Position numbers and translations under genes: made by a program
DNA from: Bradyrhizobium lablabi
Lineage (GTDB): Bacteria; Pseudomonadota; Alphaproteobacteria; Rhizobiales; Xanthobacteraceae
Reading direction: 5' to 3'
NCBI RefSeq assembly: GCF_900141755.1
Contig: NZ_LT670844.1
Span: forward strand, 3,596,001 to 3,660,000
Length of the DNA stretch: 64,000 nt
Shown: piece by piece, positions 15,312 to 37,875 of the stretch
Layout of the letters: every line of letters starts with the position of its first letter
Numbering within the stretch: the stretch's first letter is position 1
The notes under the pieces: generated by a model
Told to the model about the DNA's origin: nothing
The model's database searches: none
The model's input: the letters and a program-made list of their open reading frames with translations, nothing else

Positions 15312-15328
15312 CGACTATGCAAAATCAG
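15312..15328 (-). promoter_or_regulatory. TGCATAG motif, copy 1
   Basis: CTGATTTTGCATAGTCG read on the minus strand, the full consensus. It faces the Gly/Cys-rich exported protein and ends 92 bp before its ATG. It forms a back-to-back pair with the plus-strand copy at 15391. Confidence 0.7.
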
Positions 15329-15390
15329 GCAGCGAGCAAAACTCCGCCCTAAATTTCACTTTGCCCCTGCAATCGGCTCAAATCTTGCCG

Positions 15391-15401
15391 GAATTGCATA
15401 G
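15391..15401 (+). promoter_or_regulatory. TGCATAG motif, copy 2 (variant)
   Basis: GAATTGCATAG keeps the core TTGCATAG but lacks the trailing TCG (GGGAG follows). It faces the small exported protein at 15500 and ends 98 bp before its start. It is a weaker member of the set, accepted because position and direction fit. Confidence 0.5.
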
Positions 15402-15499
15402 GGAGCGCTTGACTGCCGGCCTACTATGGTTCGAAATAAATTCTACTGAAGCGCATTTGTCCAAGCGAGCAAGGGCAGCGCCATCTTCTGTGGTGCATC

Positions 15500-15862
15500 A
15501 TGAGAATGGGACCGCGGATCATCAACCTTCTCTCCGTGTTGACGATAGCCGTGCTTTGCGCATCGTGCAGAACCGACTCATCACCTGACCTTGGTCAAGA
15601 CTCATCCATCCTTAGCCAGGCCGAATTAAATGCCCGGGAAGATTGTCTGCATCAAGAGGTGGCTCGGCTTTTGGAGCCACAGGGAAGTCCACTTAGTTCC
15701 CTTCAAACCATTGCTGTGACTGCGACCCGCTTTTGCAGCCACACGATAGCAGCAAGGCTCAGAGGCGTTTCCGCGTCCGCTGCGAGAGACGATCAAATTA
15801 AGACCGAGGAGCACGCCTTCGCGATAGGTCTAGAGATGAGAGAAAGGAGAGCATCGAGATAG
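15500..15862 (+). CDS. small exported protein, possibly lipoprotein
   Basis: A 120-residue protein with N-terminal IINLLSVLTIAVLCASC. The cysteine after CAS could be lipidated, though Cys at -3 is not the usual lipobox, so a normal signal peptide is the alternative. The mature part is polar, with two further cysteines (REDCLHQE and TRFCSHT) likely to pair, and a C-terminal charged helix. I do not recognise a family. The ribosome site is weak. It lies 98 bp downstream of a variant TGCATAG motif. Confidence 0.6.
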   Translation: MRMGPRIINLLSVLTIAVLCASCRTDSSPDLGQDSSILSQAELNAREDCLHQEVARLLEPQGSPLSSLQTIAVTATRFCSHTIAARLRGVSASAARDDQIKTEEHAFAIGLEMRERRASR

Positions 15863-15941
15863 ATAGCCCACACTCTGGGGGAGTTATACAACGTCCGACA
15901 TCCACCCTAGGGCGCGAGCAGTTATCTACGTCGAGTTCCGC

Positions 15942-16220
15942 TCAGAGCGCAGGAACCATCGGCCCATAATATGCGCCCCAGTGGCCCCACACATCGCGGC
16001 CTCCATACGGATGGGAGCGGCCAGGAAGACCGTGGGCCCGGCTATCGTAACCGCCATGGCCGTCACCGGGACTATCAGCGACGACGCCGCCAAAGTGATT
16101 GCCGCGAAAACCATCGCTACCGCCACCGAAACCGCCGCCGCGGGCAAATGCGCTCGTGGAAAATCCGGAACTTCCGAGAACAAGGACAATTGCGAGAACA
16201 TTTATGGCGTTGCGCAACAT
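15942..16220 (-). CDS. small exported Gly-rich protein, WGAYYGPM family
   Basis: A 92-residue product from the ATG at 16220 (AGAGG 8 bases before). The signal peptide MLRNAINVLAIVLVLGSSGF ends near AFA, then RGGGFGGGSDGFRGNHFGG and a C-terminal DVWGHWGAYYGPMVPAL. The VWGHWGAYYGPM ending is one I know from short exported Bradyrhizobium proteins without assigned function. The Gly/His-rich middle could bind metal ions. It is divergent from the gene at 16607. Confidence 0.7.
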   Translation of the reverse strand: MLRNAINVLAIVLVLGSSGFSTSAFARGGGFGGGSDGFRGNHFGGVVADSPGDGHGGYDSRAHGLPGRSHPYGGRDVWGHWGAYYGPMVPAL

Positions 16221-17019: not shown

Positions 17020-18858
17020 TTAGCCGACTTTCGTCTTCGCCAATGGAAGCCTGAACGAGAACACCGCGCCGCGCTGGCGGTTCTCGACCGAGATGTCGCC
17101 GCCATAACTTTCAAGGATCGTGCGCGCGATCGGAAGTCCCAAGCCCGTCCCTTGCGGCTTCGTTGTGACGAACGCATCGAAGATGCTTGCCATTTTGTCG
17201 TTTGGTATGCCCTTTCCAGAGTCCGATATTCGCACTTCGACGCCGTCGGCCTCGGCATTCTGACGGGTCCTGACCGTCAAATTGTGTGGTCCGGGCTCGC
17301 CGTCCATGGCATCGATACCGTTCATCACCAGGTTGATCATCACCTGCTGCAAATGGATCGGATCGGATCGTACCGGCAACGCTTGTGGGGCAAGTACGGT
17401 ACGCAACAGAACTCCCCGCCTTTCTATCTCAGGCGAAACAATCTTGACCACGTCCCGAACGGTGTCATTCAGGTCGACCGCTCGCAGATCGCCCTCCTTC
17501 CTGTCGTTCAGTAAATTCCGCAAGCCGGCAATGATCTCGCTCGCGCGCTGTTCGTCCCTGACAATATCCGAAAGAATTTCGCTGATTTGGCCGAGGTCAG
17601 GTGGATCGGCCTTTAGCAGGACTTGCGCGGCTTCGGTGTTGCTTAGGATCGCTCCTAAAGGCTGGTTGAGTTCATGTGCTATGGATGACGACAGTACATT
17701 TGCCGTCGTCACCCGGTTCAATCGGACGACCTCGCGGCGACGACTGGTTGCTTCAGCTTGCGCGAAATGGCGGCGGCGACGCTCGACCAGCAACCAAGAG
17801 ATGATTGCGGCCTGCAACAGCAGTGCAGCAACGCCGATGGTCACTTGCGGCCGATATTGCTCCCATAAACCGGGTTGGCGAAAGTGGATCTCACTCCCCG
17901 CGGGCAAACTGCCTTCGCTGATGTTCCAGCGTTGCAGCTCTCTCCAATCGTACTTTGGCGTCGCATATCCGATCGGAGGCGTCTTGATATCTCCCGGTGC
18001 TTCTCCGCCCATGATGCGCATGGCGACACTAGCCGCTTCTCGGCTTACAGATGAAACCGAAATAAGTGGTCCACCGATGATCCCTTGACCAAAAAACGCG
18101 TCGGAATGGGTAAATATCGGCGCGTTCGCGACCGCATGAAGACGGGTCAAGATCCCTTCTTCGTGGGGAACTCCTGCCCCATCAACCGAAAACAGCCCAA
18201 AGAAGATAGCGGACCGTTGTGGCAACGCAGTGGCGCGCTGGAGCATCTCTTCAAGCGATAAATCGTTCAACCACGTAAACGAGACTCGCCCTTCGAATCG
18301 TCGGAGATCGGTGCGCAATTGTTCCATCCAATATTTCTCGAGGGGAGAGTCACCGAGAACAACTGCAACACCGGTGGTTTGGGGAAGTACCCGCAACATA
18401 TTTTCTATGATGACGGGAAAATCGTTGTTGACCGCGACCACCGCGTCGTTCGCCGTGAGTCCGCTGAGCGAGACTCGGCGATTCTCAAAAGCCGTGTACA
18501 GCGCCGGCACGGAAGGAAACAGTTGCTGCCTATGTTGCTGGACAAAGTTGACCGCCGGCCCACCGATGGCCACGACCAGATCGAGCCGACGTTCGCTGAA
18601 AAGAGCGCTCAAATAGCCGACGAACGGTCCCTCTTGATCATCGGCGAAGCGAGCGGTCGCCAAAGACGCCTCGTAGAGGTCTATGGCGTTTGGCGATTGC
18701 CGAACCAATTCCTCTCGGAAGGCCCTGGCATACTCGCTCCATGGCGCGAAATCGCGGCCGAAGGAGTGCAGGAGCAGAACCCGCTTGGACTCGGAGAGTG
18801 CCTCGCCGGTCATGGCGAGAAGCAGCACAATCGCACTAAAGAGTATCCGGGATCTCAT
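17020..18858 (-). CDS. histidine kinase with ABC_sub_bind-like sensor
   Basis: A 612-residue membrane sensor kinase. After a signal peptide comes a periplasmic domain (about 24-330) like the ABC_sub_bind family (KRVLLLHSFGRDFAPWSEYA, VVAIGGPAVNFV, PIFTHSDAFFGQGIIGGPL), then one membrane helix (338-358), HisKA with SIAHELNQPLGAILSN (His395), and HATPase with the N box QVMINLVMNGIDAM, G1 box DSGKGIP and G2 box GTGLGLPIA. It senses an unknown periplasmic ligand. The receiver gene lies 203 bp upstream on the same strand and, with its TGCATAG motif, probably forms the same unit. Confidence 0.9.
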   Translation of the reverse strand: MRSRILFSAIVLLLAMTGEALSESKRVLLLHSFGRDFAPWSEYARAFREELVRQSPNAIDLYEASLATARFADDQEGPFVGYLSALFSERRLDLVVAIGGPAVNFVQQHRQQLFPSVPALYTAFENRRVSLSGLTANDAVVAVNNDFPVIIENMLRVLPQTTGVAVVLGDSPLEKYWMEQLRTDLRRFEGRVSFTWLNDLSLEEMLQRATALPQRSAIFFGLFSVDGAGVPHEEGILTRLHAVANAPIFTHSDAFFGQGIIGGPLISVSSVSREAASVAMRIMGGEAPGDIKTPPIGYATPKYDWRELQRWNISEGSLPAGSEIHFRQPGLWEQYRPQVTIGVAALLLQAAIISWLLVERRRRHFAQAEATSRRREVVRLNRVTTANVLSSSIAHELNQPLGAILSNTEAAQVLLKADPPDLGQISEILSDIVRDEQRASEIIAGLRNLLNDRKEGDLRAVDLNDTVRDVVKIVSPEIERRGVLLRTVLAPQALPVRSDPIHLQQVMINLVMNGIDAMDGEPGPHNLTVRTRQNAEADGVEVRISDSGKGIPNDKMASIFDAFVTTKPQGTGLGLPIARTILESYGGDISVENRQRGAVFSFRLPLAKTKVG

Positions 18859-19061: not shown

Positions 19062-19415
19062 TCATGGGACCTTTTTGATTGCCTCAATGAGCAGATTTGC
19101 CAAAAACGGCTTCCGAAGATACGCAATGCAGCCAGCGTCAAATGCCTCCTGACGGGTGGCTTCGTTATCGATCGCCGTCATGAAAATCACCGGCAGATCC
19201 GTACCCGATGACGTCAGCCGCCGTTGCAGATCGATGCCTGAGATCCCGCCGAGGTGAATGTCCAGAACAAGGCAATCCGCCCCGCACTCTGCGAAGCTCT
19301 CAAGAAACAGTTCTGCGGAAGTAAATGTCTGAACGCGGAAGCCGTGCGCTGCCAGCAGACGGCCAAGACCCTTTAGCAGGCTCGGATTGTCATCAATGAC
19401 AGCTATGGTGCGCAT
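19062..19415 (-). CDS. single-domain response regulator
   Basis: A 117-residue CheY-like receiver with no output domain: acidic pair DD8-9, phosphoacceptor Asp52 in LVLDIHLGG, Thr80 in FMTA and Lys102 in YLRKPF. The frame is open to 19463, but the receiver fold begins at the ATG at 19415. With the kinase downstream it makes a two-component pair; lacking a DNA-binding domain, it must act through protein contact or a phosphorelay. The closest output partner in the region is the FixJ-like regulator at 28.6 kb, but that link is a guess. A TGCATAG motif faces it 141 bp upstream. Confidence 0.88.
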   Translation of the reverse strand: MRTIAVIDDNPSLLKGLGRLLAAHGFRVQTFTSAELFLESFAECGADCLVLDIHLGGISGIDLQRRLTSSGTDLPVIFMTAIDNEATRQEAFDAGCIAYLRKPFLANLLIEAIKKVP

Positions 19416-19556
19416 GCGATTGCTGATCCAAATAAAGAAGAGTTCGCTGGCGATGGCGAACAATCGATAGCGATCTGCGGAGATACGACCTCGCAGCTGA
19501 ATGCGTAGGCGATTTACCTGCGCGTGCAGACCACACTCGTGCAGCGGCTGCTACGA

Positions 19557-19572
19557 CGCTATGCAAAATCCA
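19557..19572 (-). promoter_or_regulatory. TGCATAG motif, copy 3
   Basis: TGGATTTTGCATAGCG on the minus strand, facing the receiver gene at 19415 and ending 141 bp before its ATG. It lies in the 222-bp gap between that gene and the end of the upstream sulfatase operon. Confidence 0.65.
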
Positions 19573-19637
19573 CCGCAAGGCTGACATTTGCCGATGCCTG
19601 CGTGAGCTCGGCCGTCACCGACCATGACGCCAGGCGG

Positions 19638-20711
19638 TCAGGGATTTGGTCGGTTGAGCACGGTACGAAAACCCAGATGCGCCGCCGAAAGGTCGTTTTC
19701 CTGGGGCTGCCGAGCGGCGGGGCGATAGCGAGAACAATAGTTCATCGAGCACAAATATGAGCCGCCCTTGATGACTCGGCTCGCCGTTTGCCCTTGCGCA
19801 ATACGAAGGCTGACGCGTTCAGGACCGATCGGATTGGTTGCCGCTGCTTTCGAGTGACCCGATCTGTACCAATCGCTGGTCCATTCCCAGACGTTGCCGA
19901 TCATGTCGTAAAGGCCATAGCCGTTTGGGGGAAAGCATCCCACCGGAGCTGTTTCGGCAAAGCCATCATCGTTCGTGTTCAGCACCGGAAAGATACCCTG
20001 CCAGGTATTGGCAATCGGTTTGCCTTCCGGATCGAACGCGCTGCTCCAGTCGTCTTCGCCATCACGGCCGCCGCGCGCCGCGAACTCCCACTGCGCTTCC
20101 GTTGGCAAGCTGCGGCCGAGCCATTTGGCATAAGCAAGGGCGTCATCATAGGCGATATGAACCACGGGGTGGTTTTCCTTGCCCACGATCGAACTTGCCG
20201 GGCCGCCGGGCTGGCGCCAGTTAGCGCCGGCAACATATTGCCACCATCGACCGTCTTCGCCCTTCGCATCCTTCGGAGGCACAAACATGATAGAGCCGGG
20301 AACGAGCAACTCACGCGGCCAATCAGGATGGCTCTTGGGATCGACCGGACGCTCGGCCAAAGTCACATAACCGGTCGCGTCGATGAATTTCTTGAATTGC
20401 GCGTTCGTCACCTCGTGGCGGTCGATCCAGAAGCCGTCGACGCGCACAATGTGGGTAAACCGCTCCTCCGGCTGATGTTGATCGGAGCCCATCGCAAAGG
20501 TGCCCGCTGGAACAAAGCTCATTCCCGCAGTCTCACCGTCGCCCAAAGGGAGCCCGGAGTAAGCGGCGCAACTGCCGATTTCTGCTTTTCGCTCCTGCTT
20601 TTTCGTGACCTCGGTCGCGGACACACAGATCATCGCACCAGCAAACGCCGCAGCGCAAACACCCACAGCCAAAACAGAACGAACCCAGAGCGGCCAATTT
20701 AGCGAAACCAT
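19638..20711 (-). CDS. formylglycine-generating enzyme (SUMF1/FGE family)
   Basis: A 357-residue FGE-sulfatase domain protein with an N-terminal hydrophobic segment (about 9-30). Family blocks are clear: GMSFVPAGTFAMGSD, WIDRHEVTNAQFKKFIDATG, PVVHIAYDDALAYAKWLG, RSLPTEAQWEFAARGG, GLYDMIGNVWEWTSDWY. The catalytic pair is kept as Cys321 and Cys326 in YLCSMNYCSRYRPAAR. FGE oxidises the cysteine of a CxPxR motif in sulfatases to formylglycine; its client is very likely the sulfatase of this operon. The hydrophobic N-terminus suggests export or a membrane anchor, whereas many bacterial FGEs are cytosolic. The start has AGGAGT before it and lies 11 bp after the catalase-like gene. Confidence 0.92.
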   Translation of the reverse strand: MVSLNWPLWVRSVLAVGVCAAAFAGAMICVSATEVTKKQERKAEIGSCAAYSGLPLGDGETAGMSFVPAGTFAMGSDQHQPEERFTHIVRVDGFWIDRHEVTNAQFKKFIDATGYVTLAERPVDPKSHPDWPRELLVPGSIMFVPPKDAKGEDGRWWQYVAGANWRQPGGPASSIVGKENHPVVHIAYDDALAYAKWLGRSLPTEAQWEFAARGGRDGEDDWSSAFDPEGKPIANTWQGIFPVLNTNDDGFAETAPVGCFPPNGYGLYDMIGNVWEWTSDWYRSGHSKAAATNPIGPERVSLRIAQGQTASRVIKGGSYLCSMNYCSRYRPAARQPQENDLSAAHLGFRTVLNRPNP

Positions 20712-20722: not shown

Positions 20723-21895
20723 CTAATGCGCCGACTGATGGCTGCCGCCGCTGGCTTCATCTAGCGAGCGGCTCCCCGGATGCTTCGACTCACTGTCGGC
20801 ATCTCGACACCCTCCTGCGGCCCGACTGTCCGCGCACATGCGGGCTCTTCGGCTGGCAACCTCTGCTGGCCAGCGGGCCCGATTGATGCTTCCGAGAGGC
20901 GCGCTGTCAGGTGTCGAATTTCCGGTGACGTCGAAATAGATGGTCTCACTCTCTTCCGGCGGAAGTTGCGAACCAGGCAGCAGGGTAAGCCTCGCGACCG
21001 TATGGAAGGGCGCTTCCGCTTCGCTCCACTCGACGCTGGCGTTTTCGATCCAGAAGCTGGCATCCCGACGCTTGCCCCAGTACGTCATATTGTCGGCGTC
21101 GAGTAACTGGACCCCAAAGTCGAAGCTGCTCATTTTGCCATCCTCCTTGAGGTGCCGGATCAGTTCGTCCTGCAGGCCCTTCGGATTGCTCTTTTCCAGA
21201 GGGCAAGCCGGATTGTTCGGGGATGGCGTGGCCGAAAACTTCACGACGTCGGTCGGTCCGTGACGAAAAGGGACGGTGCTCCAGTAGCGCAGCTGTTGGT
21301 AGGGCTTGATGGTCTGGCGCGCCTGTATCTCCGCCAAAGCGAGCGTTCTCACCACTCTCAGCTTGTCCTGGAACGGCAGGGACCACAGACCGAGGACTGG
21401 GTTTGATGCCGTCAACACGCCGATAGTCGCCAGAAAAGCGGGCGAGTCATTGATGGGCAGGGTCGTTGCGTTTTGCATCGAGAAGTCCTGCCGACCAGGC
21501 TTTGCGTCAGGACCTGCGGTGTCATCCCGAGCGAGGTCGACCGAGAAAGACAACGACCTTACGTCGGGCTTAAAATCGGAGTTTACGCTGGCGTCCGCGT
21601 TGGCAAATCGCACCACCGCGGGATAAGCGCCAGGCTTTGCGAAAATCCCCTTCGCAAGCCGCCTCGCCAGCGCCGGCTGGCGTCCGGCCGTTACGTCAAG
21701 TACGTCGAACTGGGCTCGGGCGCACACACCCTTTGCGTGGGTTCCACGGCAAAGCCCTCGTTGCTGTTTCGCGGCAGCATTCGTCTGCATCAAGAGAGAT
21801 TTCTCGACGATCGCCTCAATATCGGCCTTTTCGCGGAAGGGGTTCCGGTCAGCATCGCTCTCGGTCACTCCAAACCATCTGGTCAGCAACACCAT
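20723..21895 (-). CDS. catalase-like haem protein (SrpA-like)
   Basis: A 390-residue protein of the small catalase-related family. RGTHAKGVCARAQFDV carries the distal-His region, AVVRFANADASV follows as in catalases, and SMQNATTLPINDSPAF resembles the region of the distal Asn. I could not find the proximal Tyr motif with certainty, so haem ligation needs checking. GGGAGAC before the ATG at 21895 decides the start over 21931. The last 45 residues (from about RARMCADSRAAGG) are polar and low in complexity and look like an added tail or a late frame change. The gene follows the DyP gene by 32 bp and precedes FGE by 11 bp. Confidence 0.8.
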   Translation of the reverse strand: MVLLTRWFGVTESDADRNPFREKADIEAIVEKSLLMQTNAAAKQQRGLCRGTHAKGVCARAQFDVLDVTAGRQPALARRLAKGIFAKPGAYPAVVRFANADASVNSDFKPDVRSLSFSVDLARDDTAGPDAKPGRQDFSMQNATTLPINDSPAFLATIGVLTASNPVLGLWSLPFQDKLRVVRTLALAEIQARQTIKPYQQLRYWSTVPFRHGPTDVVKFSATPSPNNPACPLEKSNPKGLQDELIRHLKEDGKMSSFDFGVQLLDADNMTYWGKRRDASFWIENASVEWSEAEAPFHTVARLTLLPGSQLPPEESETIYFDVTGNSTPDSAPLGSINRARWPAEVASRRARMCADSRAAGGCRDADSESKHPGSRSLDEASGGSHQSAH

Positions 21896-21927
21896 CGAAA
21901 GTCTCCCACGAGACGCCGGATCACGCC

Positions 21928-23508
21928 TCATCCCAACCGGGCGATAAACTTGATCGCGGTCACACTTGGCAGAAAGCAGTACGCGGCGGCTTTCGTCGTA
22001 ACGAAGCTTGAGAATCCCGTGAGCTTGATCGGCGGTGCGCCGTTGGCGTGCGGAATGACGAAAATGCTCGCCGCCGGGTCCTGAGTGCCGATCAACGGGT
22101 CTTTGGATTTGGGATGAAGCCTGACCGCGCCGGCGAATTCGCTATCGTTGACCCAGTTTCCGAGCACAAACTCGTACTGGTTCTCGATGCTGGAGTTGAT
22201 GAAATAGCCGAGAAGGCCGCGCTCGATGCCGTCGTCGGGTCGCGCAGGATCGTAGGCTGGCCCATATGGCAGACCGCGGCGGATCAGCCGGTGGGTGTTA
22301 TTGCTTCCGCCGGGTTGCCCCTGGCCGGTGACAGGCTGACCCCTTGGATTAATGCGGCGCATGTGCGCGCCAACGGGACAGCGCAGACCCCTGGGATCAC
22401 CCGATCCATCCGCGTTCACATATTCGAAATTGTTCAACTGCTCTGGTGGAATCCCGCCTGACGGGTTGTCCGTTTCTGGCGACAACATAAGAGGAACGCC
22501 GTTGCGCCACCGTCCGCAGATCTTGGCGGCAAGCATTTCAGGGTCGATCTTATCCTTATTCGATTGAAGGTAATTCTCGAATTTGACGACGTCGGTTTTG
22601 ATCATCTTGAAGACGGCAAAGCTGCCGTTCAAGCCGAGCTCACGAGGTTCCGGCACGAAATAATTCTCGGCTTCGTCCCGCAGCACGAACAGCCAGGGTT
22701 CGCAGGGCTGCTGATGATCAGGCGGATATCGTTCCGGACCGCCGCGAATTGTCGTCATGCTGATGCCGTCGGTATAGCCGAAATGAACCTTGAAGGTGGG
22801 GACTGCTTCGCCGTCCTTCATTTCCATCAACGCCATCCCGTCAGCACGCCAGATCTCCCGAAAGGCACCGCCTTCGGCAAACAGCGCGACCAGGCGATCG
22901 CTGTAACTCGTCATCGCCTCCGGGGTAATGGCGTGCAGCGTCAAGAGGACGTGGTCGCGTCCCTTGCCGAATCCATCGATCCAGTGGTGCGGGGCGCTCT
23001 CGCCGGTATCGCCTACTAGTTTCGCGCGTTCGGCGGCACCAGAGATGAACGCGCCGAAGGATTTGAACGAGAGGCCCGGGACGCGCTCCCTGATTTCCAA
23101 CGCGATCAGCCCGGGCCACGTGATGCCGAGGTTCAGGCAATAGTCGGGCTTGCGGCGCGGGGCATCAGTGGGATGGTCGCCTGGCCCCGGCTCGAAACCC
23201 ACGTGCCAATCTTCCGCAGTGGTGATTTGCGGCACGTCGAATTCGTTGCCATTGACGAACCGACCGAGCAACTTGCGGGCCGCCGCGGGAATGCCGACCG
23301 AAAGCAGGAAATGCCGCACCATCGGCATCTTGTAACCGCGGAGGATGAAGCCCTGAATATCGCCGAGGTCAAGCGCGCTCCGCGAAGCAGATCGGGAATG
23401 GGAATCTCGTCCCGGAATTTCATTTTCCACTCGGCCGAAAAGACGGCGAAAAAATCCCTGGCCGCCTTCTTTCGCCTCAGCCGCCCGTGCCTCGTTGGCC
23501 TGACCCAT
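21928..23508 (-). CDS. DyP-type haem peroxidase
   Basis: A 526-residue dye-decolorising-peroxidase family protein. The GxxDG motif with catalytic Asp is FGYTDGIS (Asp247), the proximal haem His is His382 in RCPVGAHMRRINPRG, and the distal Arg lies probably in HRLIRRGLPYG, followed by ENQYEFVLGNWVND. The haem and peroxide sites look intact. It is longer than bacterial EfeB/DyP (about 300-420), nearer to the long class of fungi and some bacteria, and shows no Tat signal, so it is probably cytosolic or packaged. AAGGAG before the ATG. It is 15 bp downstream of the duplicated-domain gene. Confidence 0.9.
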   Translation of the reverse strand: MGQANEARAAEAKEGGQGFFRRLFGRVENEIPGRDSHSRSASRSALDLGDIQGFILRGYKMPMVRHFLLSVGIPAAARKLLGRFVNGNEFDVPQITTAEDWHVGFEPGPGDHPTDAPRRKPDYCLNLGITWPGLIALEIRERVPGLSFKSFGAFISGAAERAKLVGDTGESAPHHWIDGFGKGRDHVLLTLHAITPEAMTSYSDRLVALFAEGGAFREIWRADGMALMEMKDGEAVPTFKVHFGYTDGISMTTIRGGPERYPPDHQQPCEPWLFVLRDEAENYFVPEPRELGLNGSFAVFKMIKTDVVKFENYLQSNKDKIDPEMLAAKICGRWRNGVPLMLSPETDNPSGGIPPEQLNNFEYVNADGSGDPRGLRCPVGAHMRRINPRGQPVTGQGQPGGSNNTHRLIRRGLPYGPAYDPARPDDGIERGLLGYFINSSIENQYEFVLGNWVNDSEFAGAVRLHPKSKDPLIGTQDPAASIFVIPHANGAPPIKLTGFSSFVTTKAAAYCFLPSVTAIKFIARLG

Positions 23509-24559: not shown

Positions 24560-27061
<2,502 letters not shown>

Positions 27062-27212: not shown

Positions 27213-27330
27213 ACACGGGGCCGAGCAGCTTCGCACGCTTTCCCCGCTCGCTTGTCTTAGTCGGCTCACCAGCAAAGGCGGATCGGAGTGATAGCCGCAG
27301 GCCGGACGGAGAAGGGCCATTCGACGCGCC

Positions 27331-27344
27331 GATTTTGCATAGCG
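27331..27344 (+). promoter_or_regulatory. TGCATAG motif, copy 5
   Basis: GATTTTGCATAGCG on the plus strand, ending 59 bp before the GTG start of the HlyD gene at 27404, the shortest spacing of the set. Confidence 0.7.
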
Positions 27345-27403
27345 TCGGCCAATCAACCGGTTGCAAATGAACGCTGGACATTATCAAACGACGGGGCCTC
27401 GCC

Positions 27404-28513: not shown

Positions 28514-28621
28514 CAGCGACGAACGCACTCTGCTGGCAATCACCTGCGTTGACGAGTCGCGCGCGAGTGGATTATTTTCGCGTTCCAAGCTCAGGCGTCC
28601 ACCTCGACCAGGGTGAGCACG

Positions 28622-29839: not shown

Positions 29840-30010
29840 AGTCTTCCTTTCGGAGGTTGACGATGTGAGTTTCTAAAAGTCGTCTCAATAGCGACGAGCT
29901 TGACGTGACCTTAGAGCAACAACGCCGGACAGATTTTGTATGGAACCGATTTGCGGAGAGACATCCAATCTATGGTTGATAGACTGATCTCCAGCATTGG
30001 GAGCAAGCCG

Positions 30011-31084
30011 ATGACGCGCGAGTTGTCCGAACCAAGTTTTCGCGGTTGGCTCATCCACTCTAGCGTCGGCGTAGCCGTGTTGATGTTAGGATCCTTGTCC
30101 CAGGTGGCCTATGCCGACGAGGGCGGCGTTTCGTTCTGGCTTCCCGGGCAGTTCAGCAGCCTTGCGGCAACTCCCCAGGTGCCGGGCTGGTCCATGGCCG
30201 AGGTTTACTATCATACCACTGTATCGGCATTTGGTGGTGTGGCCGCGGCAAGAGAGATTACGATCGGCAGGTTCGCGCCGACAGTTAACGTCAGCTTGAA
30301 TGCAAGCCTGCATGCGCAAGCCGATCTCCTGCTGCTCAATCCGACTTACACATTCGCGACGCCGGTGCTTGGCGGACAACTGGCCATCGGCATGACCGGC
30401 CTGTTCGGCCGATCGGCGGCTTCGATCGATGGAACGCTCACCGCAGGGTTCGGACAGTTTGCGGCAATGCGCATGGGAAGCATCGGCGACTCCATCACCT
30501 CCTTCGGCGACCTCTATCCGGTGGCGACGCTGAAGTGGAATGCGGGCGTCAACAATTTCATGACCTATCTGACGGGCGACATTCCCGTTGGCGCCTACAG
30601 TCCCACGCGCCTTGCCAATCTCGGTATCGGCCACGCCGCGATCGATGGCGGCGGCGGCTACACCTACTTCAATCCGCAGACCGGGCACGAATTCTCAGCC
30701 GTCGCGGGATTTACCTACAACTTCAAGAATCAGGACACGCAATACCAAAACGGCATCGACTTCCACGTCGACTGGGGCGCCTCCCAGTTTCTCTCGAAAC
30801 AAGTTTTCGTCGGCCTCGTGGGATATGTGTATCAGCAGGTTACGGACGATTTCGGTCAACATCCGATTCTGGGTGGTTTCCAGTCGCGCGTCATTGGTGT
30901 GGGGCCGCAGATCGGATTTCTGTTTCCGGTTGGAGACATGCAGGGATACGTCAATCTGAAAGGATACGGCGAATTCGATCAAGCCAACCGGCCGGCGGGA
31001 TGGAATACGTGGCTGACGTTCTCGATCTCACCGATGGCGCCTACCAGCACTGTGACGCCGACGCGCCACATGGTGACGAAGTAA
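30011..31084 (+). CDS. SphA-like outer-membrane protein
   Basis: A 357-residue product read from the ATG at 30011 (GGGAG 8 bases before; the frame is open to 29936). Signal peptide with GVAVLMLGSLSQVAYA. The mature protein fits the SphA/Phenol_MetA_deg family of outer-membrane beta barrels found near aromatic or hydrophobic-compound genes: GGVSFWLPGQFSSLAATPQVPG is cut short here to its first residues GGVSFWLPGQFSSL, then QADLLLLNPTYTFATPVLGG, GDIPVGAYSPTRLANLGIG and NPQTGHEFSAVAGFTYNF. Probable passive uptake of hydrophobic molecules. A degenerate motif (GATTTTGTATGG) at 29932 faces it. Confidence 0.82.
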   Translation: MTRELSEPSFRGWLIHSSVGVAVLMLGSLSQVAYADEGGVSFWLPGQFSSLAATPQVPGWSMAEVYYHTTVSAFGGVAAAREITIGRFAPTVNVSLNASLHAQADLLLLNPTYTFATPVLGGQLAIGMTGLFGRSAASIDGTLTAGFGQFAAMRMGSIGDSITSFGDLYPVATLKWNAGVNNFMTYLTGDIPVGAYSPTRLANLGIGHAAIDGGGGYTYFNPQTGHEFSAVAGFTYNFKNQDTQYQNGIDFHVDWGASQFLSKQVFVGLVGYVYQQVTDDFGQHPILGGFQSRVIGVGPQIGFLFPVGDMQGYVNLKGYGEFDQANRPAGWNTWLTFSISPMAPTSTVTPTRHMVTK

Positions 31085-31174: not shown

Positions 31175-31984
31175 ATGAATTCCATTCCCGGGGCCCGGAT
31201 ACGCCGCTATTTCCTGATTTTTGCAGCGGTGATGGCTTGCTACGTCGCTGTTAGCTACTTGATCTTGCCGGCCACTTGGTCGCGCGTCGAGCATGAACCC
31301 GGTCTTTCAAAGCGGGTGATGCGGACCTCGACGGCGCAGGGTATCCCCGGAGATCCCATTAATGTGGGCCTCATTGGAACCCGCGAAGACGTGGTCTATG
31401 CCTTTCACGCAGCTGGATGGTATCCAGCAGATCCAATTACGCTGCGGACAAGCCTCGAAATTGTGGACAGCGTCATGCTCGATCGTCCTTACAAGGACGC
31501 TCCAGTCAGCCCGCTCTTCTTCGAGGGCCGGCGTGAAGATCTCGCATTTGAAAAGCCGCACGGAGTGAGCGCGGACCGCCGGCAGCACGTTCGGCTATGG
31601 TTGGTACTCGAAAGCGGGACCGATGCAGCTCCCGTTTGGCTTGGATCGGCAACTTTCGACAGCGGGGTTACGCTGAGTCGGGACACCGGCCAGGTTACGC
31701 ACAAAATCGCACCAAATATAGATGAAGAGCGCGACGAGCTGATCGGCGACCTGAACCAGGCGCAGACGGTCTTGCGCATTTATCAAATGAACGGGATCGG
31801 CCCTACCCTGAATGGACGGAACGGTGAAGGGGATCCTTATTACACCGACGGAGAGATATGGTTGGCGCGGCTTGTTCCTCGAGGGGAGAAGGCCGACAAG
31901 GTCGCCAGCATGCAGCCCTCGCCTGCATTGATCCAAATAAAGGATGCGGTGTTTTCCTGGTCTTCTCCCGGCCATTCACGTTGA
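31175..31984 (+). CDS. LssY_C-domain membrane-anchored protein
   Basis: A 269-residue protein with one N-terminal helix (YFLIFAAVMACYVAVSYLIL) and a periplasmic LssY C-terminal domain: GDPINVGLIGTREDVVYAFH, AAGWYPADPITLRTSLEI, PVSPLFFEGRREDLAFEKP and RQHVRLWLVLES. LssY was named in the Legionella type I secretion locus; the domain's activity is not known to me. GGAGGCGATCC just before the ATG is strong. It follows the outer-membrane barrel gene by 90 bp on the same strand, so the two may be cotranscribed. Confidence 0.82.
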   Translation: MNSIPGARIRRYFLIFAAVMACYVAVSYLILPATWSRVEHEPGLSKRVMRTSTAQGIPGDPINVGLIGTREDVVYAFHAAGWYPADPITLRTSLEIVDSVMLDRPYKDAPVSPLFFEGRREDLAFEKPHGVSADRRQHVRLWLVLESGTDAAPVWLGSATFDSGVTLSRDTGQVTHKIAPNIDEERDELIGDLNQAQTVLRIYQMNGIGPTLNGRNGEGDPYYTDGEIWLARLVPRGEKADKVASMQPSPALIQIKDAVFSWSSPGHSR

Positions 31985-32031
31985 CTGCTCTGTCGACATG
32001 AATTGGGCAAACGAGCCGCGGCGCAGTGCTT

Positions 32032-32045
32032 TTTTTGCATAGTCG
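32032..32045 (+). promoter_or_regulatory. TGCATAG motif, copy 6
   Basis: TTTTTGCATAGTCG on the plus strand; the preceding GA of the consensus is replaced by T. It faces the cyclase fusion gene and ends 157 bp before its ATG. Confidence 0.62.
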
Positions 32046-32202
32046 TCCGCGCGGGTTTTGCCGTAACTTGCCAAGCCAAATCTCGCTGCTAACCGGAGAT
32101 CGGCTCGGCCATGGAAAAAGGCGATCGAGGAACGCATGCTAATCTTGCTAGGGCGACCAACGGTTGGCGGATCGCCGCGCGGCGCGCGCGCAACAATCGA
32201 AC

Positions 32203-35200
32203 ATGTTGAGACGCCTAGCCAAGGCTGTCTGCTTGCTCCTGCTGGCATCGCATCCCGCCGCCGCTCTCGATGCGGTTTCCCTACAGCTCAAATGGAAGCA
32301 CCAGTTTCAGTTCGCCGGCTACTACGCGGCGCTTGAGCAGGGTTTCTATCGTAACGCCGGTCTCGACGTGACGATCCGCGAAGGTGGTCCCGATATCGAC
32401 GTTGCCGAGGCGGTCGCCAGCGGCAAAGCGGATTTCGGCGTCTGCGGCGCCAGTGTTCTGCGTGAATGGGCGGCGGGTCGGCGGCTGGTCGTGTTGGCCG
32501 CCATCTTCCAGCACTCCCCGGCAATCATTCTGGTCCCGCGCCGGGCGGACATCAGCAGCGTGTCGGATTTACGCGGCCGCACGCTGATGGACGCGCCGGG
32601 GAGCGACGATATCGCCGTGATGCTGAAGCGCGAAGGGGTCGATTACGAGACGTTACCGCGGGTCGCTCACGACGGAAATCCGCGCGATCTCTTGACTGGT
32701 CGTGCCGACGCGATGGTTGCTTACAGCACCAACGAGCCGTTCGCTCTTGAGCAGCTCGGAGCCGCATTTCGGACCTTCTCGCCCAGCGCGTACGGAATCG
32801 ATTTCTATGGCGACAATCTGTGCAGTTCCGAGACAGAGGTGAGAGCCCACCCCGAACGAGTGGCCGCGTTCCGCGCGGCAAGCCTAAAAGGCTGGGCCTA
32901 TGCGCTGGCGCACAAGGAGGCGACTGTCGATTTGATCCTCAAGACCTATTCGCAAAAAAAGAGCCGCGAGGCTTTGCTGTTCGAAGCAGCCCGCACGGAT
33001 CTGCTGGTCGGACGGGGCCCAGGCCAAATCGGTGAACAGGATGCCGCGCGCTGGCGACACATCGCCGCGACGTATCGGAAGCTCGGGATGTTGAGTGACG
33101 ATACGCTGCCCAAAGGGCTGATGTGGGACAGAGAAGACGAAGTCGAAGGACGCTGGTTGATCCCACTGCTCCTTGTCCCGGTCGGATTGGCGATTGCGGG
33201 TGTGGTCCTGTACCGAAGTCGCCGTACCCTGCGGGGCGCACTGGCCCGGCTGGGGGCCCTCCCGTTAATCGCCACAATGGGGCGACCAAGGCTGAGCCTG
33301 ATCATGTCTTTGCTGTTCATCGGCCTCAGCATTCCCGCTCTCATCTTCATCCTGATCTACAATTACAATAAGAACTCGGCCGGCATGGTGTCGATCCTGA
33401 ACGACGCGGTCGCGCAGACCAGCCGGGCCAGCGTCGAGCGCACCCAGGATTTGATCGAAAGCACGGAAAGCCCGCTTCGCTTTCTCGCCGAGGTGGCCGC
33501 CGCCGATCCCGGCTATTTTCGTACCGAGGAAAGCCGCGATCTGCTCCATCGCGCCCTGACCTCGGCTGCGCATATCGACGCCGTCTATGTCAGCTTCGAG
33601 GATGGTTATCATCGGGTTGTCACCCGCATCGACGAGGACCGCAGACGCAGCGATCCTCGCATTCCGGCGGCCGCGAACTGGCACTCCAGCTACATCGACG
33701 CGATCACGTTTGCGCTCTCACGATTCCGCCATCGCAAATTCTTCGACATATGGCCCCATGAGGTCGGCGGATACGATGTCGGCACTGACACCGACATTCG
33801 GACGCTGCCCGGCTATCAGGCGGCCAAGATCACCAGGACGCTTGCCGTGACCGAGCCCTCGATCAACCCCGACACCGGTTTCCCCATTCTCTCGCTGCGT
33901 GTTCCAATCTTCCATGGTGTCGACTTCCTGGGCTGCGCATCGGCCAACATCACCATGGACGTCATGTCGCACTTTCTCGACAAGCATCGAGCCAGCCCAC
34001 ACAGCACGACCCTGATCGCGGACCGCAACAACGGCAAGATCATTGCCTTCCCAACCAAGCAGAAGAGCGTCAGCATAGAGAATGGAGCGCTTAGGGTCGC
34101 AACTCTGGCGGATATCGACGATCCGGATGTGCGCGAGGCTCATCGTCAGCACGCTCATGCTGGTGCCGACAGCTTCGTCTTCCGATCGCCGGCGAACGGA
34201 GAGGATTTCATCGCGGCCTTCGCCAATTTCCCGGATGGTTTCGGTCAGGCCTGGCAGGTGATTACGCTGACGCCGGTCGACGATTTCGTAGGGACGTTGA
34301 AGGCAACCAATCGGTTGATGATGGTGATCATCATCATCCTCACCATGATCGAGCTGTTCTTCATCTATTTCGCAGCCAGCCGACTGTCGCGGCCGGTCGA
34401 AAACGTGTCGCGACAATTGCAGGAGATCGAAAGTCTGCAATTCGACACACCCGGGACTCAGCCATCCAATATCCGGGAGATCGCGAGGCTGGAGTCCGCG
34501 GCTTCGCTGTTGCGAACATCGCTGAAATCGTTCTCCTCCTTTGTTCCGCTCGATGTGGTCCGCCAGCTCATCAAATCCGGCATTCCGCTGACCCTGGGCG
34601 TTGAGCCGCGAATGCTCACCGTGTTCTTTTCCGATCTTGAGAATTTTTCCAGCCACTCCGAGACTCTCGCACCGGACGACCTTCTGGTTCAGATCTCGAC
34701 CTATCTCGAGGAAGTGTCAGGCGCGATATCGCAAGAGGGAGGAACCGTCGACAAGTTCATTGGCGACGGCGTCATGGCGTTCTGGAACGCCCCGGTACAG
34801 CGTACCGACCATGTGCTGCGTGGCTGCGCGGGCGCCTTGCGGGCAGCGCGGCGCATGGAGCGTGTCAACGATGCCTGGGAGGCGGAAGGCCGGCCGCGAA
34901 TCCGAATCCGGATCGGACTTAATTGCGCCAATGTTCTTGTCGGCAATGTCGGCTCTTCGGCTCGACTGAGCTACACGGCCTTGGGAGACGGCGTGAATGT
35001 CGCCGCCCGCCTTGAAGGCATCAACAAGCTGTTTGGCACCACCATCTGCATCAGCGACAGCATCTACGACCATGCGCAGTCCGACATACTCGCTCGACCA
35101 CTGAAGCGCGTTCAGGTGAAGGGCCGCAAGACCGGGTTCATGATCTATGAGTTGCTCGCTATCCGCGCCAGCGACGATCCCGAGCTGAGCGTCCGTGACC

Positions 35201-35379
35201 GTGACGAGCGGCTGTGCGCGATGACCTGGAAAGCGTCGCAGTGGATGGAGGCCGGCGATTTTGCAGCGGCGGAGCGCGGCTATCGCGATATTCTTGACAA
35301 TTTTCCCGCCGATCCCGTGGCGAAGGTCATGCTCGAGGAATGCGGGCAGAGGCGAACCTCCCTTGTAGTCGGTTTTTGA
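32203..35379 (+). CDS. substrate-binding/CACHE/HAMP/adenylate cyclase fusion
   Basis: A 1058-residue receptor cyclase. In order: signal peptide; an NMT1/THI5-like binding domain (VSLQLKWKHQFQFAGYYAAL, KADFGVCGASVL, about 25-310); helix WLIPLLLVPVGLAIAGVVLY; helix SLIMSLLFIGLSIPALIFIL; a CACHE-like periplasmic domain (about 395-690); helix MMVIIIILTMIELFFIYF; a HAMP-like linker; and a class III cyclase domain (about 800-990). Metal-binding Asp811 (FFSDLENFS) and Asp855 (KFIGDG), base-selecting Lys851 and Thr925, and transition-state Asn932 and Arg936 (GDGVNVAARLE) are all present, so it should make cAMP. Three helices place both sensors outside and the cyclase inside. The ATG at 32203 is chosen over a TTG at 32164. 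Confidence 0.9.
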   Translation: MLRRLAKAVCLLLLASHPAAALDAVSLQLKWKHQFQFAGYYAALEQGFYRNAGLDVTIREGGPDIDVAEAVASGKADFGVCGASVLREWAAGRRLVVLAAIFQHSPAIILVPRRADISSVSDLRGRTLMDAPGSDDIAVMLKREGVDYETLPRVAHDGNPRDLLTGRADAMVAYSTNEPFALEQLGAAFRTFSPSAYGIDFYGDNLCSSETEVRAHPERVAAFRAASLKGWAYALAHKEATVDLILKTYSQKKSREALLFEAARTDLLVGRGPGQIGEQDAARWRHIAATYRKLGMLSDDTLPKGLMWDREDEVEGRWLIPLLLVPVGLAIAGVVLYRSRRTLRGALARLGALPLIATMGRPRLSLIMSLLFIGLSIPALIFILIYNYNKNSAGMVSILNDAVAQTSRASVERTQDLIESTESPLRFLAEVAAADPGYFRTEESRDLLHRALTSAAHIDAVYVSFEDGYHRVVTRIDEDRRRSDPRIPAAANWHSSYIDAITFALSRFRHRKFFDIWPHEVGGYDVGTDTDIRTLPGYQAAKITRTLAVTEPSINPDTGFPILSLRVPIFHGVDFLGCASANITMDVMSHFLDKHRASPHSTTLIADRNNGKIIAFPTKQKSVSIENGALRVATLADIDDPDVREAHRQHAHAGADSFVFRSPANGEDFIAAFANFPDGFGQAWQVITLTPVDDFVGTLKATNRLMMVIIIILTMIELFFIYFAASRLSRPVENVSRQLQEIESLQFDTPGTQPSNIREIARLESAASLLRTSLKSFSSFVPLDVVRQLIKSGIPLTLGVEPRMLTVFFSDLENFSSHSETLAPDDLLVQISTYLEEVSGAISQEGGTVDKFIGDGVMAFWNAPVQRTDHVLRGCAGALRAARRMERVNDAWEAEGRPRIRIRIGLNCANVLVGNVGSSARLSYTALGDGVNVAARLEGINKLFGTTICISDSIYDHAQSDILARPLKRVQVKGRKTGFMIYELLAIRASDDPELSVRDRDERLCAMTWKASQWMEAGDFAAAERGYRDILDNFPADPVAKVMLEECGQRRTSLVVGF

Positions 35380-35456
35380 TCCTGAACGGCTATCTAGCTC
35401 GATGATTTCGGCGTGGCGAATTGTTTCCTCAAAGTCGGCCCAGCACCCCCATCGGG

Positions 35457-35473
35457 CTGATTTTGCATAGTCG
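35457..35473 (+). promoter_or_regulatory. TGCATAG motif, copy 7
   Basis: CTGATTTTGCATAGTCG, identical over 17 bases to copy 1. It faces the DUF1254/DUF1214 gene and ends 90 bp before its ATG, in the short gap after the cyclase gene. Confidence 0.72.
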
Positions 35474-35563
35474 CCCGTAACGGGAGTGCGTAATTTTGCG
35501 CGGCCAGTTTTATATTGCGCACGAGCGCCCGAGCACACGCCGCAAAGAGGAAGGAATGTTCAG

Positions 35564-37006
35564 ATGTTGACGAAACGTGATCTTCTTCGCTCCGCCGCCC
35601 TAGCTGCAATCACCGCGTCGACGGCGAAGTCCGTCCCTGTGCAAGCGCAGACGAACGCCGACCGCCCTGGCTTCCTCAAGGCAAAGGACATTGCCGAGGC
35701 AGGGTTCATCTACGGCCTGCCCATTGTGATGGGCTACGGCGTCATGTACGAGTTTGCGGTAGATCGCAATTCCGGGCAGTACAAGGCGCCGTTCAATCAG
35801 ATTGCGAACGCGGCCAACGTATTCACCTATAAAGACACCGCCGTTGTCACACCGAACAGCGACACGCCTTATTCAGTCGTATGGATGGACTTGCGGGCGG
35901 AGCCGCTCGTGCTTTCGGTCCCGCCGGTGGACCCGAAGCGCTACTACTCGGTCATGCTGTGCGACGGTAATACCTACAACTACGGCTATATCGGGACCCG
36001 TGCCACGGGGAGCGAAGCCGGCGACTACATGGTTGTCGCTCCGGACTGGAAGGGCGCAACTCCGCCAGGAATTAAAAAGGTGTTCCGGTCGAGCACCCAG
36101 TTCTCGATGGCGATATATCGCACCCAGCTCTTCAGCCCCGACGATCTCGACAACGTCAAGAAGGTGCAGGCCGGCTACAAGGTGCAGACGCTTTCGGCCT
36201 ATCTGAAACAGCCGGCTACGACTGCCGCAGCAACGATCGATTTTCCTGAAATCGACAAGGAACTCGCGAAGACGAACTTTTTCGACTACCTCGACTTCGC
36301 GCTGCAATTTGCTCCGGCCCAGGAGAACGAGAAGGAGATACGCGCGCAGCTCGCCAGTATCGGCGTCGGACCCGGCAAAACCTTCAACTTCAAGGACCTG
36401 CCGCTGGAGCAAAAGCTCGAAGTCGGCTTGGGCATGAAGGAAGGTGAGAAGAAGGTCGATGAGGCCGTCGCCAATGCCGGCAAGGCGATCAATGGCTGGC
36501 GAGTCAGCTCGCTTTTCGGCGATAGTGCTTTTTTCAACGGCGACTGGTTGAAACGCGCTGCCGGCGCGAAGGGAGGAATATACGGCAACGACGCAGCGGA
36601 GGCGATGTATCCCGCCAGGCGCACCGACAGCGATGGTCAGACCCTGGACGGCAGCCAACACAATTACACGCTGACATTCCCAGCAGGGCAGTTGCCGCCG
36701 GTGAATGCCTTCTGGTCGCTGACCATGTACGACGGCAAGTCGCAGTTGCTGATCGAAAACCCGATCAATCGCTATCTGATCAACTCGCCGATGCTAGCGA
36801 CCATGAAGACAAATGCCGACGGGTCGCTCACGCTCTACATCCAGAACAAATCGCCAGGCGCTGACAAGGAATCGAACTGGCTGCCTGCTCCAAACGGCCC
36901 GATCTATCTGGTGTTGCGGCTCTACTGGCCGAAGGTCGAACCACCTTCGATCCTGCCGGTGGGTGAAGGCACCTGGCAGCCGCCCGACATCAAGCGGGTG
37001 TCGTAG
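35564..37006 (+). CDS. exported DUF1254/DUF1214 protein
   Basis: A 480-residue protein with an export signal that begins LTKRDLLRSAALAAIT; the Lys-Arg followed by hydrophobic residues resembles a weak Tat signal. DUF1254 lies at about 55-190 (AEAGFIYGLPIVMGYGVMYE, VVTPNSDTPYSVVWMDLRAE, KRYYSVMLCDGNTYNYGYIG) and DUF1214 at about 370-470 (LPPVNAFWSLTMYDGKSQLL, NPINRYLINSPM, PIYLVLRLYWP). These paired domains occur together in many bacteria; no activity is established to my knowledge. AGGAAGGA precedes the ATG at 35564. It is motif-controlled like the cyclase before it. Confidence 0.88.
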   Translation: MLTKRDLLRSAALAAITASTAKSVPVQAQTNADRPGFLKAKDIAEAGFIYGLPIVMGYGVMYEFAVDRNSGQYKAPFNQIANAANVFTYKDTAVVTPNSDTPYSVVWMDLRAEPLVLSVPPVDPKRYYSVMLCDGNTYNYGYIGTRATGSEAGDYMVVAPDWKGATPPGIKKVFRSSTQFSMAIYRTQLFSPDDLDNVKKVQAGYKVQTLSAYLKQPATTAAATIDFPEIDKELAKTNFFDYLDFALQFAPAQENEKEIRAQLASIGVGPGKTFNFKDLPLEQKLEVGLGMKEGEKKVDEAVANAGKAINGWRVSSLFGDSAFFNGDWLKRAAGAKGGIYGNDAAEAMYPARRTDSDGQTLDGSQHNYTLTFPAGQLPPVNAFWSLTMYDGKSQLLIENPINRYLINSPMLATMKTNADGSLTLYIQNKSPGADKESNWLPAPNGPIYLVLRLYWPKVEPPSILPVGEGTWQPPDIKRVS

Positions 37007-37062
37007 ATGCAGCGGATCCGGTAATGGCAGTAGCGAACCAAACGAACCAGAAGGACACCGCC

Positions 37063-37335
37063 ATGCGAGCACATCTGACCTATCCAGCGATACTCACCGC
37101 GTTCTTGCTAGGTTCGACGTCAATGGCCCCTGCACAGACCGGCGAGTTCGCCGTTCAAGTCCCGGGTTCGGTCGTTCACGACGGTTGGGAGCTTCAAGAC
37201 CGACTGCAAAATGCCCGGTCTGGAGCGCCCGCCAAATCGGTCAGCCCCACAACTCAAAGCTACGACGGACCGAATCCTGCGCGGCCAGTAGCCGGCAGCG
37301 TCACAACTGTGAACCCAACCAAAGGCGGACGGTAA
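37063..37335 (+). CDS. small exported protein
   Basis: A 90-residue product from the ATG at 37063 with GAAGGA before it; the frame is open to 37024. Signal peptide MRAHLTYPAILTAFLLGSTS ends near APAQ. The mature 65 residues are polar and low in complexity (GSVVHDGWELQDRLQNARSG, then SPTTQSYDGPNPARP), probably unstructured. No family is recognised. It lies 56 bp after the DUF1254 gene and may share its transcript. Confidence 0.6.
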   Translation: MRAHLTYPAILTAFLLGSTSMAPAQTGEFAVQVPGSVVHDGWELQDRLQNARSGAPAKSVSPTTQSYDGPNPARPVAGSVTTVNPTKGGR

Positions 37336-37342
37336 GTCGAAG

Positions 37343-37651
37343 CTAACGAGCCCCCGTACTCATCTGGAGGCATGTCAGTAGACTAACATAACTCGGTGTG
37401 CCGCCAACCCTTTCATTCTCGGTGCAGCTCGCTCTGCTTGGTGCAGCAAATTTCGACCATTGGTTCCCCAGTTGCTGTCTTGCCCGTTGTTCATCTCTTA
37501 TGCAGCTCTTATCAGGTTCACGGACACTGAGACCAGCGGTAGCGGCGACGTCGAGTTTGCAATTGCGGGTGATGTCGAACTTCGGCACCTGGTCAGCCAC
37601 CGCAACAACCAACTGCGTGCTAACAATTATCATAGAGATCGAGATAGGCAT
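37343..37651 (-). CDS. small exported Cys-containing protein, PKFDIT family
   Basis: A 102-residue protein with a strong start (AGGAGGCTAGC then ATG at 37651). A short signal segment (MIIVSTQLVVAVA) is followed by DQVPKFDITRNCKLD, SCIRDEQRARQQLGNQWSKF and CTENERVGGTPSYVSLLTCL. Four cysteines with conserved spacing and the SYVxLLTCL ending match a small periplasmic family I know from Bradyrhizobium and relatives, function unknown. It is convergent with the preceding small gene, only 7 bp apart. Confidence 0.75.
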   Translation of the reverse strand: MPISISMIIVSTQLVVAVADQVPKFDITRNCKLDVAATAGLSVREPDKSCIRDEQRARQQLGNQWSKFAAPSRASCTENERVGGTPSYVSLLTCLQMSTGAR

Positions 37652-37858
37652 GCTAGCCTCCTGCTCGTATTTCGCTTAAGTGCATTTTGAAAAGCGGACC
37701 ATCCGCATTCAACTCCTAGTCAGGCTGGGCACCATTCGTCTATGCGAAAACCGACAGCCGTCGCGCTTCCGCCGATGCTCGTTCGGTTACTCAAACGACT
37801 GCGCTTTGGGAGCGCGGTTGTCTCCTATTGGAAGCCCTGCGGTCACCAATTGGGCCGT

Positions 37859-37875
37859 CTGATTTTGCATAGACG
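37859..37875 (+). promoter_or_regulatory. TGCATAG motif, copy 8
   Basis: CTGATTTTGCATAGACG on the plus strand, one base from the best form. It faces the frameshifted histidine kinase and ends 67 bp before its ATG. The 291 bp between the neighbouring genes hold nothing else recognisable. Confidence 0.7.

Follow-up and report, generated by a model that had tools for sequence, protein, structure and literature searches.

Background

In the class II activation described for MarA, as set out in PMC6900184, a sensor-less AraC-type protein acts through an asymmetric box that lies in one fixed orientation over the -35 region, and the promoter has a sigma70-like -10 element. A comparable arrangement appears to exist in a gene cluster of Bradyrhizobium lablabi, within the 64,000-nucleotide stretch analysed here, which we call the window (bases 3596001-3660000 of the single-contig, 7.91-Mb genome NZ_LT670844.1; window positions are counted from its first base). 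There a repeated motif, TTTTGCATAG, looks like a real switch ahead of roughly nine genes or operons that lie close together. That these genes would form one regulon is well supported by conservation of the motif in orthologous clusters, its intergenic placement, its orientation and its fixed distance to a predicted -10 element. Taken as a whole, the evidence is best explained if the motif serves a local regulon as its operator and is read by an AraC-family activator, which we consider probable; the comparisons below suggest a short AraC-type protein encoded at 29417-29839 as the best candidate reader, ahead of a FixJ-like protein encoded in the same cluster.

Literature searches with TTTTGCATAG and CTATGCAAAAT as text returned nothing on this subject by title among the matches listed, and combinations of family and genus terms found no published account of the regulon among the matches listed. 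The regulon is of a known kind.

Results

A repeated box in a 23-kb cluster

Chance as the origin of the motif copies in the cluster is ruled out by their enrichment over shuffled sequence and by the genome-wide count. The core TGCATAG occurs nine times in the window, compared with a mean of 3.4 and a maximum of 7 in 100 dinucleotide shuffles, and five window sites match the 17-mer at up to three mismatches (shuffles: mean 0.07, maximum 1). Exact TTTTGCATAG is present ten times in the 7.91-Mb genome, and six of these copies fall between 3611315 and 3633872, within a 23-kb cluster (binomial chance ~1e-13); two of the other four lie inside called genes (3325431, 4250351). A preliminary description of this DNA had proposed such a genome-wide count as a check.

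The same description had listed eight copies, two of them identical over 17 bases, all intergenic and all pointing to the next gene, and in each of these respects, positions and strands included, it is confirmed. Its statement that no copy lies inside a gene fails for the 7-base core, which occurs at 25982(+), antisense within the sulfatase gene; this core-only match has neither the T run upstream nor a phased -10 element and is therefore probably due to chance. Its further statement that the window holds no other copy missed a diverged one at 37740(-), and its list of targets omitted the 102-aa gene at 37343-37651(-) that this copy faces.

Architecture of the box and its promoter

Sites were scored with a 19-position matrix built from 42 sites of the window and four orthologous clusters, 6 of 48 TGCATAG occurrences having been dropped for fewer than two T among the three bases preceding the core; thresholds of 13 or 14 bits served for loose scans, and a site of at least 20 bits is called a strong box. 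Gene calls and the -10 scan came from our own scripts; the gene finder places starts approximately and overlooks small genes. The box so defined is 19 bp long and asymmetric, with the consensus GkCnGWTTTTGCATAGnCG. Sites scoring at least 20 bits number 220 in 89 related regions, and 218 of them could be classified, the other 2 being at region ends; 206 of the 218 are intergenic and 12 lie in called genes, whereas random points are intergenic in about 26% of cases. The next called gene is faced by 183 of the 206 intergenic sites, from which it is separated by a median of 88 bp. The remaining 23 do not face the next called gene, although some of them appear to face the wrong way because the gene finder missed the 102-aa gene that they actually face.

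Merging by flank similarity reduced the 220 sites to 133, in which conservation covers columns -9 to +9, centred on the T of TGCATAG, with a second signal at +27 to +32. TAnnnT stands at +27 in 20 of the 133 sites and in at most 8 at any other offset (maximum 8 in 2000 shuffles), and T occupies +32 in 82 of them. This second signal is predicted to be a sigma70-like -10 element (TAnnnT). If it is the -10 hexamer, then the box would lie at -48 to -30, with TAGnCG at the place of the -35 hexamer and a 17-nt spacer. The box thus overlaps the -35 region in one fixed orientation, as in a class II layout, the -10 element being read from sequence only.

Two other promoter or operator types were compared with these columns. 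LuxR-type dimers usually bind inverted repeats, and no inverted repeat of the LuxR/FixJ type was seen when box columns -10 to +9 were inspected by eye. A sigma54 promoter carries GG ten bases ahead of the GC of its -12 element; TTTTGCA looks like such a -12 element, yet the -24 GG is missing in the merged site alignment, where columns -11 and -10 are mostly C/G and T/G, and a sigma54 promoter was rejected.

In the window, copy 1 (15312..15330, minus strand; GCCTGATTTTGCATAGTCG) points toward the gene for a Gly/Cys-rich exported protein, and copy 2 (15386..15404, plus strand), which has a weak upstream half and a TGCATAG core, toward that for a small exported protein; the putative -10 element of copy 2, TACTAT (15422..15427, plus strand), is exactly at the expected place. 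Copy 3 (19556..19574, minus strand; GGTGGATTTTGCATAGCGT) is directed toward the receiver and kinase genes, and copy 4 (27196..27214, minus strand; GTCTGAAACTGCATAGTCG), weak at 15.3 bits, toward the sulfatase operon, with the predicted -10 element TAATAT (27174..27179, minus strand) 1 nt off the main spacing. Toward the right follow copy 5 (27327..27345, plus strand; CGCCGATTTTGCATAGCGT), facing the genes for the HlyD-like, the FixJ-like and perhaps the AraC-type protein, copy 6 (32027..32045, plus strand; TGCTTTTTTTGCATAGTCG), facing the receptor cyclase gene, and copy 7 (35455..35473, plus strand; GGCTGATTTTGCATAGTCG), facing the DUF1254 gene, for which the -10 scan proposes TAATTT (35491..35496, plus strand). 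Copy 8 (37737..37755, minus strand; GTCGGTTTTCGCATAGACG) is the diverged copy, its match TTTTCGCATAG at 37740(-) scoring 20.9 bits; it is back-to-back with the match at 37866(+) and lies about 85 bp before the small gene at 37343-37651(-), toward which it points. Copy 9 (37857..37875, plus strand; GTCTGATTTTGCATAGACG) is directed toward the PAS kinase gene, its candidate -10 element TATTCT (37892..37897, plus strand) being 1 nt off the main spacing. The -10 fit is poorer at window copies other than those with elements at 15422, 35491, 27174-27179 and 37892. The two copies that are weak upstream of the core, with matches at 15395 (<13 bits) and 27199 (15.3 bits), each have a TAnnnT no more than 1 nt away from the expected -10 position.

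Conservation and distribution

Of the six loci that a search of genome contigs with the FixJ-like protein yielded, four belong to orthologous clusters (72-74% identity) of Bradyrhizobium or related draft genomes and the other two are remote (28%); each of the four clusters holds 9-10 copies of TGCATAG in 16-21 kb, several of which form back-to-back pairs. All of ten further genomes with a FixJ orthologue have 4-15 copies per 20-40 kb region (threshold 13 bits), and all of eight more have 6-10 copies each (threshold 14). Every one of the ten regions in the ten-genome set also has relatives of the histidine kinase and receiver genes close to FixJ, and none were found in the 20-kb stretch of genome G004. 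Among 265 genomes of the genus, the FixJ orthologue (E 1e-85 or better) is present in 23, made up of the window genome, the four clusters and the ten and eight further genomes, and all 23 have several boxes around it. The twenty 20-kb regions around FixJ paralogues (55-62% identity) contain no box in 18 cases and one box in 2 (threshold 13), and no strong box (threshold 20) in the 400 kb that they total. The genomes and genes compared are mutually related, so that counts across genomes are not independent.

Of the 265 genus genomes, 89 contain the pattern GATTTTGCATAG and 18 its reversed control, so that single matches can be chance. At least one match is present in 66 of the 242 genus genomes that have no FixJ orthologue, some of them with clusters. 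In the wider set of 391 family genomes, CnGATTTTGCATAG was found in other genera in 11 genomes, with one copy each and never more; multiple copies of the box were seen only in this genus among these 391.

Outside the cluster, the source genome has a sole convincing site among the 30 pattern matches listed, at 6544102 (27.6 bits), before a gene resembling that for formylglycine-generating enzyme (FGE). The site at 3170999 (24.4 bits) is intergenic and faces no called gene, and that at 5055824 is weak (18.1 bits). At three mismatches the pattern is unspecific, with 271 matches in the source genome versus 129 for the reversed control among the matches listed. A second, smaller cluster at 6533001-6553000 (L032) contains an LssY_C gene (75% identity) and the FGE-like gene (51%), the latter preceded by a single strong box.

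The main cluster has a somewhat lower G+C content than the window beyond 44 kb. Directly to its right lies a tRNA-Arg (CCT) gene (39449-39525, minus strand). The cluster may be an accessory island, perhaps inserted near this tRNA-Arg gene.

The regulator associated with the box

An orthologue of the short AraC protein (E 7.6e-35 or better) occurs in 31 of the 265 genus genomes, namely all 23 with the FixJ orthologue and 8 without it; 5 of the latter have a strong box no further than 10 kb from the AraC gene. Five box clusters without FixJ (G437, G366, G379, G416, G524) hold 5-9 copies each (threshold 14) together with HlyD, DUF1254 or LssY relatives, and four of the five encode a full-length AraC protein (~340 aa), the exception being G416, whose contig is short; the helix-turn-helix (HTH) domain of these full-length proteins is 47-48% identical to that of the short AraC-type protein of the window. 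Among the matches listed, 7 of 8 box clusters with no FixJ nearby have an AraC gene. The preliminary description had named both the FixJ-like and the AraC-type protein as candidates; because box clusters exist without the FixJ clade and 7 of the 8 listed have AraC, the AraC-type protein fits better and the case for the FixJ-like one is weakened.

Proximity was counted for 150 GATTTTGCATAG places against 150 AraC matches, each among the matches listed. AraC lies within 30 kb of 84 of the 150 places and FixJ within 30 kb of 56; 32 places are near AraC only, 4 near FixJ only and 62 near neither. The four FixJ-only places belong to G196 and G163, in which a separate box cluster or a separate contig carries the AraC orthologue.

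AraC genes were also followed on their own, by taking 20 regions down the E-value list and skipping those already fetched or on contigs with a listed motif place. The AraC recognition helix is of the ERTLR type in 19 of the 20 regions (one reads ERTIR), and a strong box is present in 10 of these 19, versus none in 14 regions with an RRxLH-type AraC gene (Fisher p 0.0014, a guide only, the rows being related). The 14 consist of 13 regions fetched earlier (G434 spans only 6 kb) and one from the AraC list, and their AraC genes are less similar; the 19 include sister regions (e.g. G416/G379, G364/G527) and are thus not independent. In a tree of 83 HTH domains over 106 columns, for which some regions had been chosen for their known boxes, the AraC genes with boxes nearby number 28 of 33 in the short clade, 29 of 34 in the full-length ERTLR clade and 1 of 14 in the RRxLH clade. 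Outside the comparison of ERTLR and RRxLH, boxes are also near two remote rows of the tree (L041, G489), and an RRxLH-type gene in the FixJ cluster of G013, also a row of the tree, has 2 boxes within 10 kb. Full-length ERTLR AraC genes often occur as neighbouring pairs (L199, L216, several of L234-L253), and the members of a pair have slightly different second recognition helices, e.g. FWELGRFSVAYR and FLELGRFAVTYR.

Several observations weigh against an AraC-family reader. For five short-clade AraC copies (two in G447, two in G383 and one in G497) no strong box lies closer than 10 kb, although G447 keeps a related gene cluster; 9 of the 19 ERTLR-type regions likewise lack a strong box. The 62 listed places near neither regulator count here as well, although many of them may be chance matches. 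In G053 a clean box lies directly ahead of a DUF1254 gene, and a box of G025 precedes a DUF1254-family gene by about 1 kb, in both cases with no AraC gene in the 40 kb covered there, AraC matches being present elsewhere in both genomes; nor is there an AraC gene in the 20-kb stretch around the strong box at 6544102 of the source genome. More generally, what associates the box with AraC is proximity, not binding.

The principal alternative is that the box is read by the FixJ-like, LuxR-type regulator (28613-29272) once switched on by the kinase encoded at 17020-18858, with AraC as a passenger or second regulator. FixJ as the sole reader was favoured at first. Boxes surround FixJ in all 23 genus genomes with its clade, and the 20 paralogue regions have no strong box and at most one loose one; moreover, boxes of G196 lie near FixJ in a 40-kb region in which no AraC was found. 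This idea was then weakened by the FixJ-less box clusters, four of five of which have AraC among the boxes, and by the AraC association, while the AraC copy of G196 lies 1.6 Mb away inside a box cluster of its own. Each of the 23 genomes searched for a FixJ-family homologue has one (best match 43-60% identity), which could work in trans. The box is not palindromic, unlike the repeats usual for LuxR-type regulators, and we consider a FixJ-like reader unlikely.

The isolated boxes of G053 and G025, together with the places near neither AraC nor FixJ, would also suit an operator for a repressor, or for some regulator encoded elsewhere that is neither AraC nor FixJ, and repressors too bind over the -35 region that the boxes overlap. 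Against this stand the fixed orientation and -10 distance combined with a poor -35, as in activator-dependent promoters, and the association of the box with one AraC recognition-helix type, which leave such an operator quite improbable. As for the proposal of one regulator or one sigma factor in the preliminary description, the single regulon that it implied is well supported and the sigma factor is not favoured. A fixed distance between two conserved blocks is what an alternative sigma factor recognizing the box and -10 element together would produce; that reading is nevertheless highly unlikely, because the -10 element is degenerate and resembles that of sigma70, conservation spans a block of 17-19 bp that reaches to -48, and no sigma model was matched in the 19 window proteins scanned except by the FixJ-like HTH (Sigma70_r4_2, 31.1 bits, versus 65.6 bits for GerE).

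Genes of the cluster

Families were assigned by a profile scan covering 19 window proteins. The best candidate for the AraC-family reader is the AraC-type protein at 29417..29839 (plus strand), which is 140 aa long from the ATG at 29417 or 171 aa from a TTG at 29324; its HTH_18 domain scores 69 bits against a cut-off of 33.6, the AraC-type PDB chains 3mn2 and 3oio were matched, and only HTH families were found in it, with no N-terminal ligand domain. The FixJ-like response regulator, with receiver and LuxR HTH domains (28613..29272, plus strand), would be a rival reader or an upstream regulator. A histidine kinase (17020..18858) and a single receiver domain protein (19062..19463) are encoded on the minus strand, as is the sulfatase (24560..27169), whose true start may be further in. 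Its presumed operon includes the gene for a 283-aa protein without family match (23524..24375) on the same strand. Also encoded on the minus strand are a 526-aa protein weakly like Dyp-type peroxidase (21928..23508; 72.7 bits, cut-off 100.5), a 402-aa protein without family match (20723..21931) and an FGE-like protein (19638..20711).

On the plus strand are encoded a HlyD-like protein (27404..28513), a MetA-pathway (phenol) family protein (29936..31084, start possibly further in), an LssY_C protein (31175..31984), a receptor with NMT1, Cache and guanylate cyclase domains (32164..35379) and a DUF1254/DUF1214 protein (35564..37006). Small products comprise the 74-aa Gly/Cys-rich exported protein (14995..15219, minus strand), the 120-aa exported protein (15500..15862, plus strand) and the 102-aa box target, probably exported (37343..37651, minus strand), for which 25 further tblastn matches were found in related regions, 17 of them faced by a strong box within 200 bp. 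The PAS histidine kinase (37907..38956, plus strand) has no ATPase domain in this frame; its frame stops at 38956 after the HisKA part and another frame called as coding, 38979-39233(+), comes next, so that the kinase may be broken or split. Near the cluster, a caspase-domain (Peptidase_C14) protein with TPR repeats is encoded at 41077-42507 on the plus strand.

Discussion

With an AraC-family activator as the probable reader, we propose that the box occupies about -48 to -30 of sigma70-type promoters, where TAGnCG would replace a poor -35, with TAnnnT at a distance of 17 nt downstream. The activator, whose recognition helix would read ERTLR, would bind each promoter at a single box, probably in monomeric form, and, once bound, would recruit RNA polymerase by the class II mode. 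In the window this part would fall to the short AraC protein encoded at 29417-29839; as this protein is sensor-less, its activity should depend on its amount. That amount may be set by the kinase, receiver and FixJ-like proteins, whose genes themselves stand behind a box, which would close a positive loop; the FixJ-like protein may thus have an upstream role, e.g. in driving AraC expression. The box with its conservation, its position and direction between genes and its phased -10, as well as its association with AraC, come from sequence comparison; binding, activation rather than repression, the monomer, the loop and the signal are what we infer. Judging from family names, our guess is that the targets serve to handle, at the envelope, a compound that is sulfated or aromatic.

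More tentatively, and with somewhat less confidence than doubt, we suggest that one pairing of box and HTH serves two regulator designs in the genus, a full-length AraC protein, equipped with an N-terminal domain, in some clusters and a sensor-less AraC protein with a kinase and FixJ in others. If so, a phosphorelay has replaced a ligand sensor with the operator code kept, and the regulon comes and goes between species. The clusters also offer a natural series for the exchange of AraC-type specificity and sensing. The analysis provides a concrete predicted operator, promoter layout and candidate regulator for genes of unknown function, among them those for DUF1254/DUF1214 and LssY_C proteins, a sulfatase and its presumed activating enzyme, a Dyp-like protein and small exported proteins; with operator and promoter layout in hand, the inducer can therefore be sought with a simple reporter.

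Comparison with described systems

Among named profiles, the HTH of the window AraC protein scores best to the models of AndR and EutR, but with 86.7 of 350 and 78.4 of 319 bits it stays far under their cut-offs and matches the C-terminal part of the models only. The cluster resembles FixLJ in containing a kinase and a FixJ-like response regulator, and differs from it in its non-palindromic box and in the occurrence of box clusters where this FixJ clade is missing. With MarA, SoxS and Rob of E. coli it would share a sensor-less AraC-type protein and an asymmetric box that overlaps the -35 region in fixed orientation, although, compared by eye, the box does not match the marbox consensus GCAHWWWWTGYYAAA (both as given in PMC6900184). 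Unlike those regulators, the AraC protein of the window, for which monomer binding is proposed here, belongs to an accessory cluster with two-component genes of its own.

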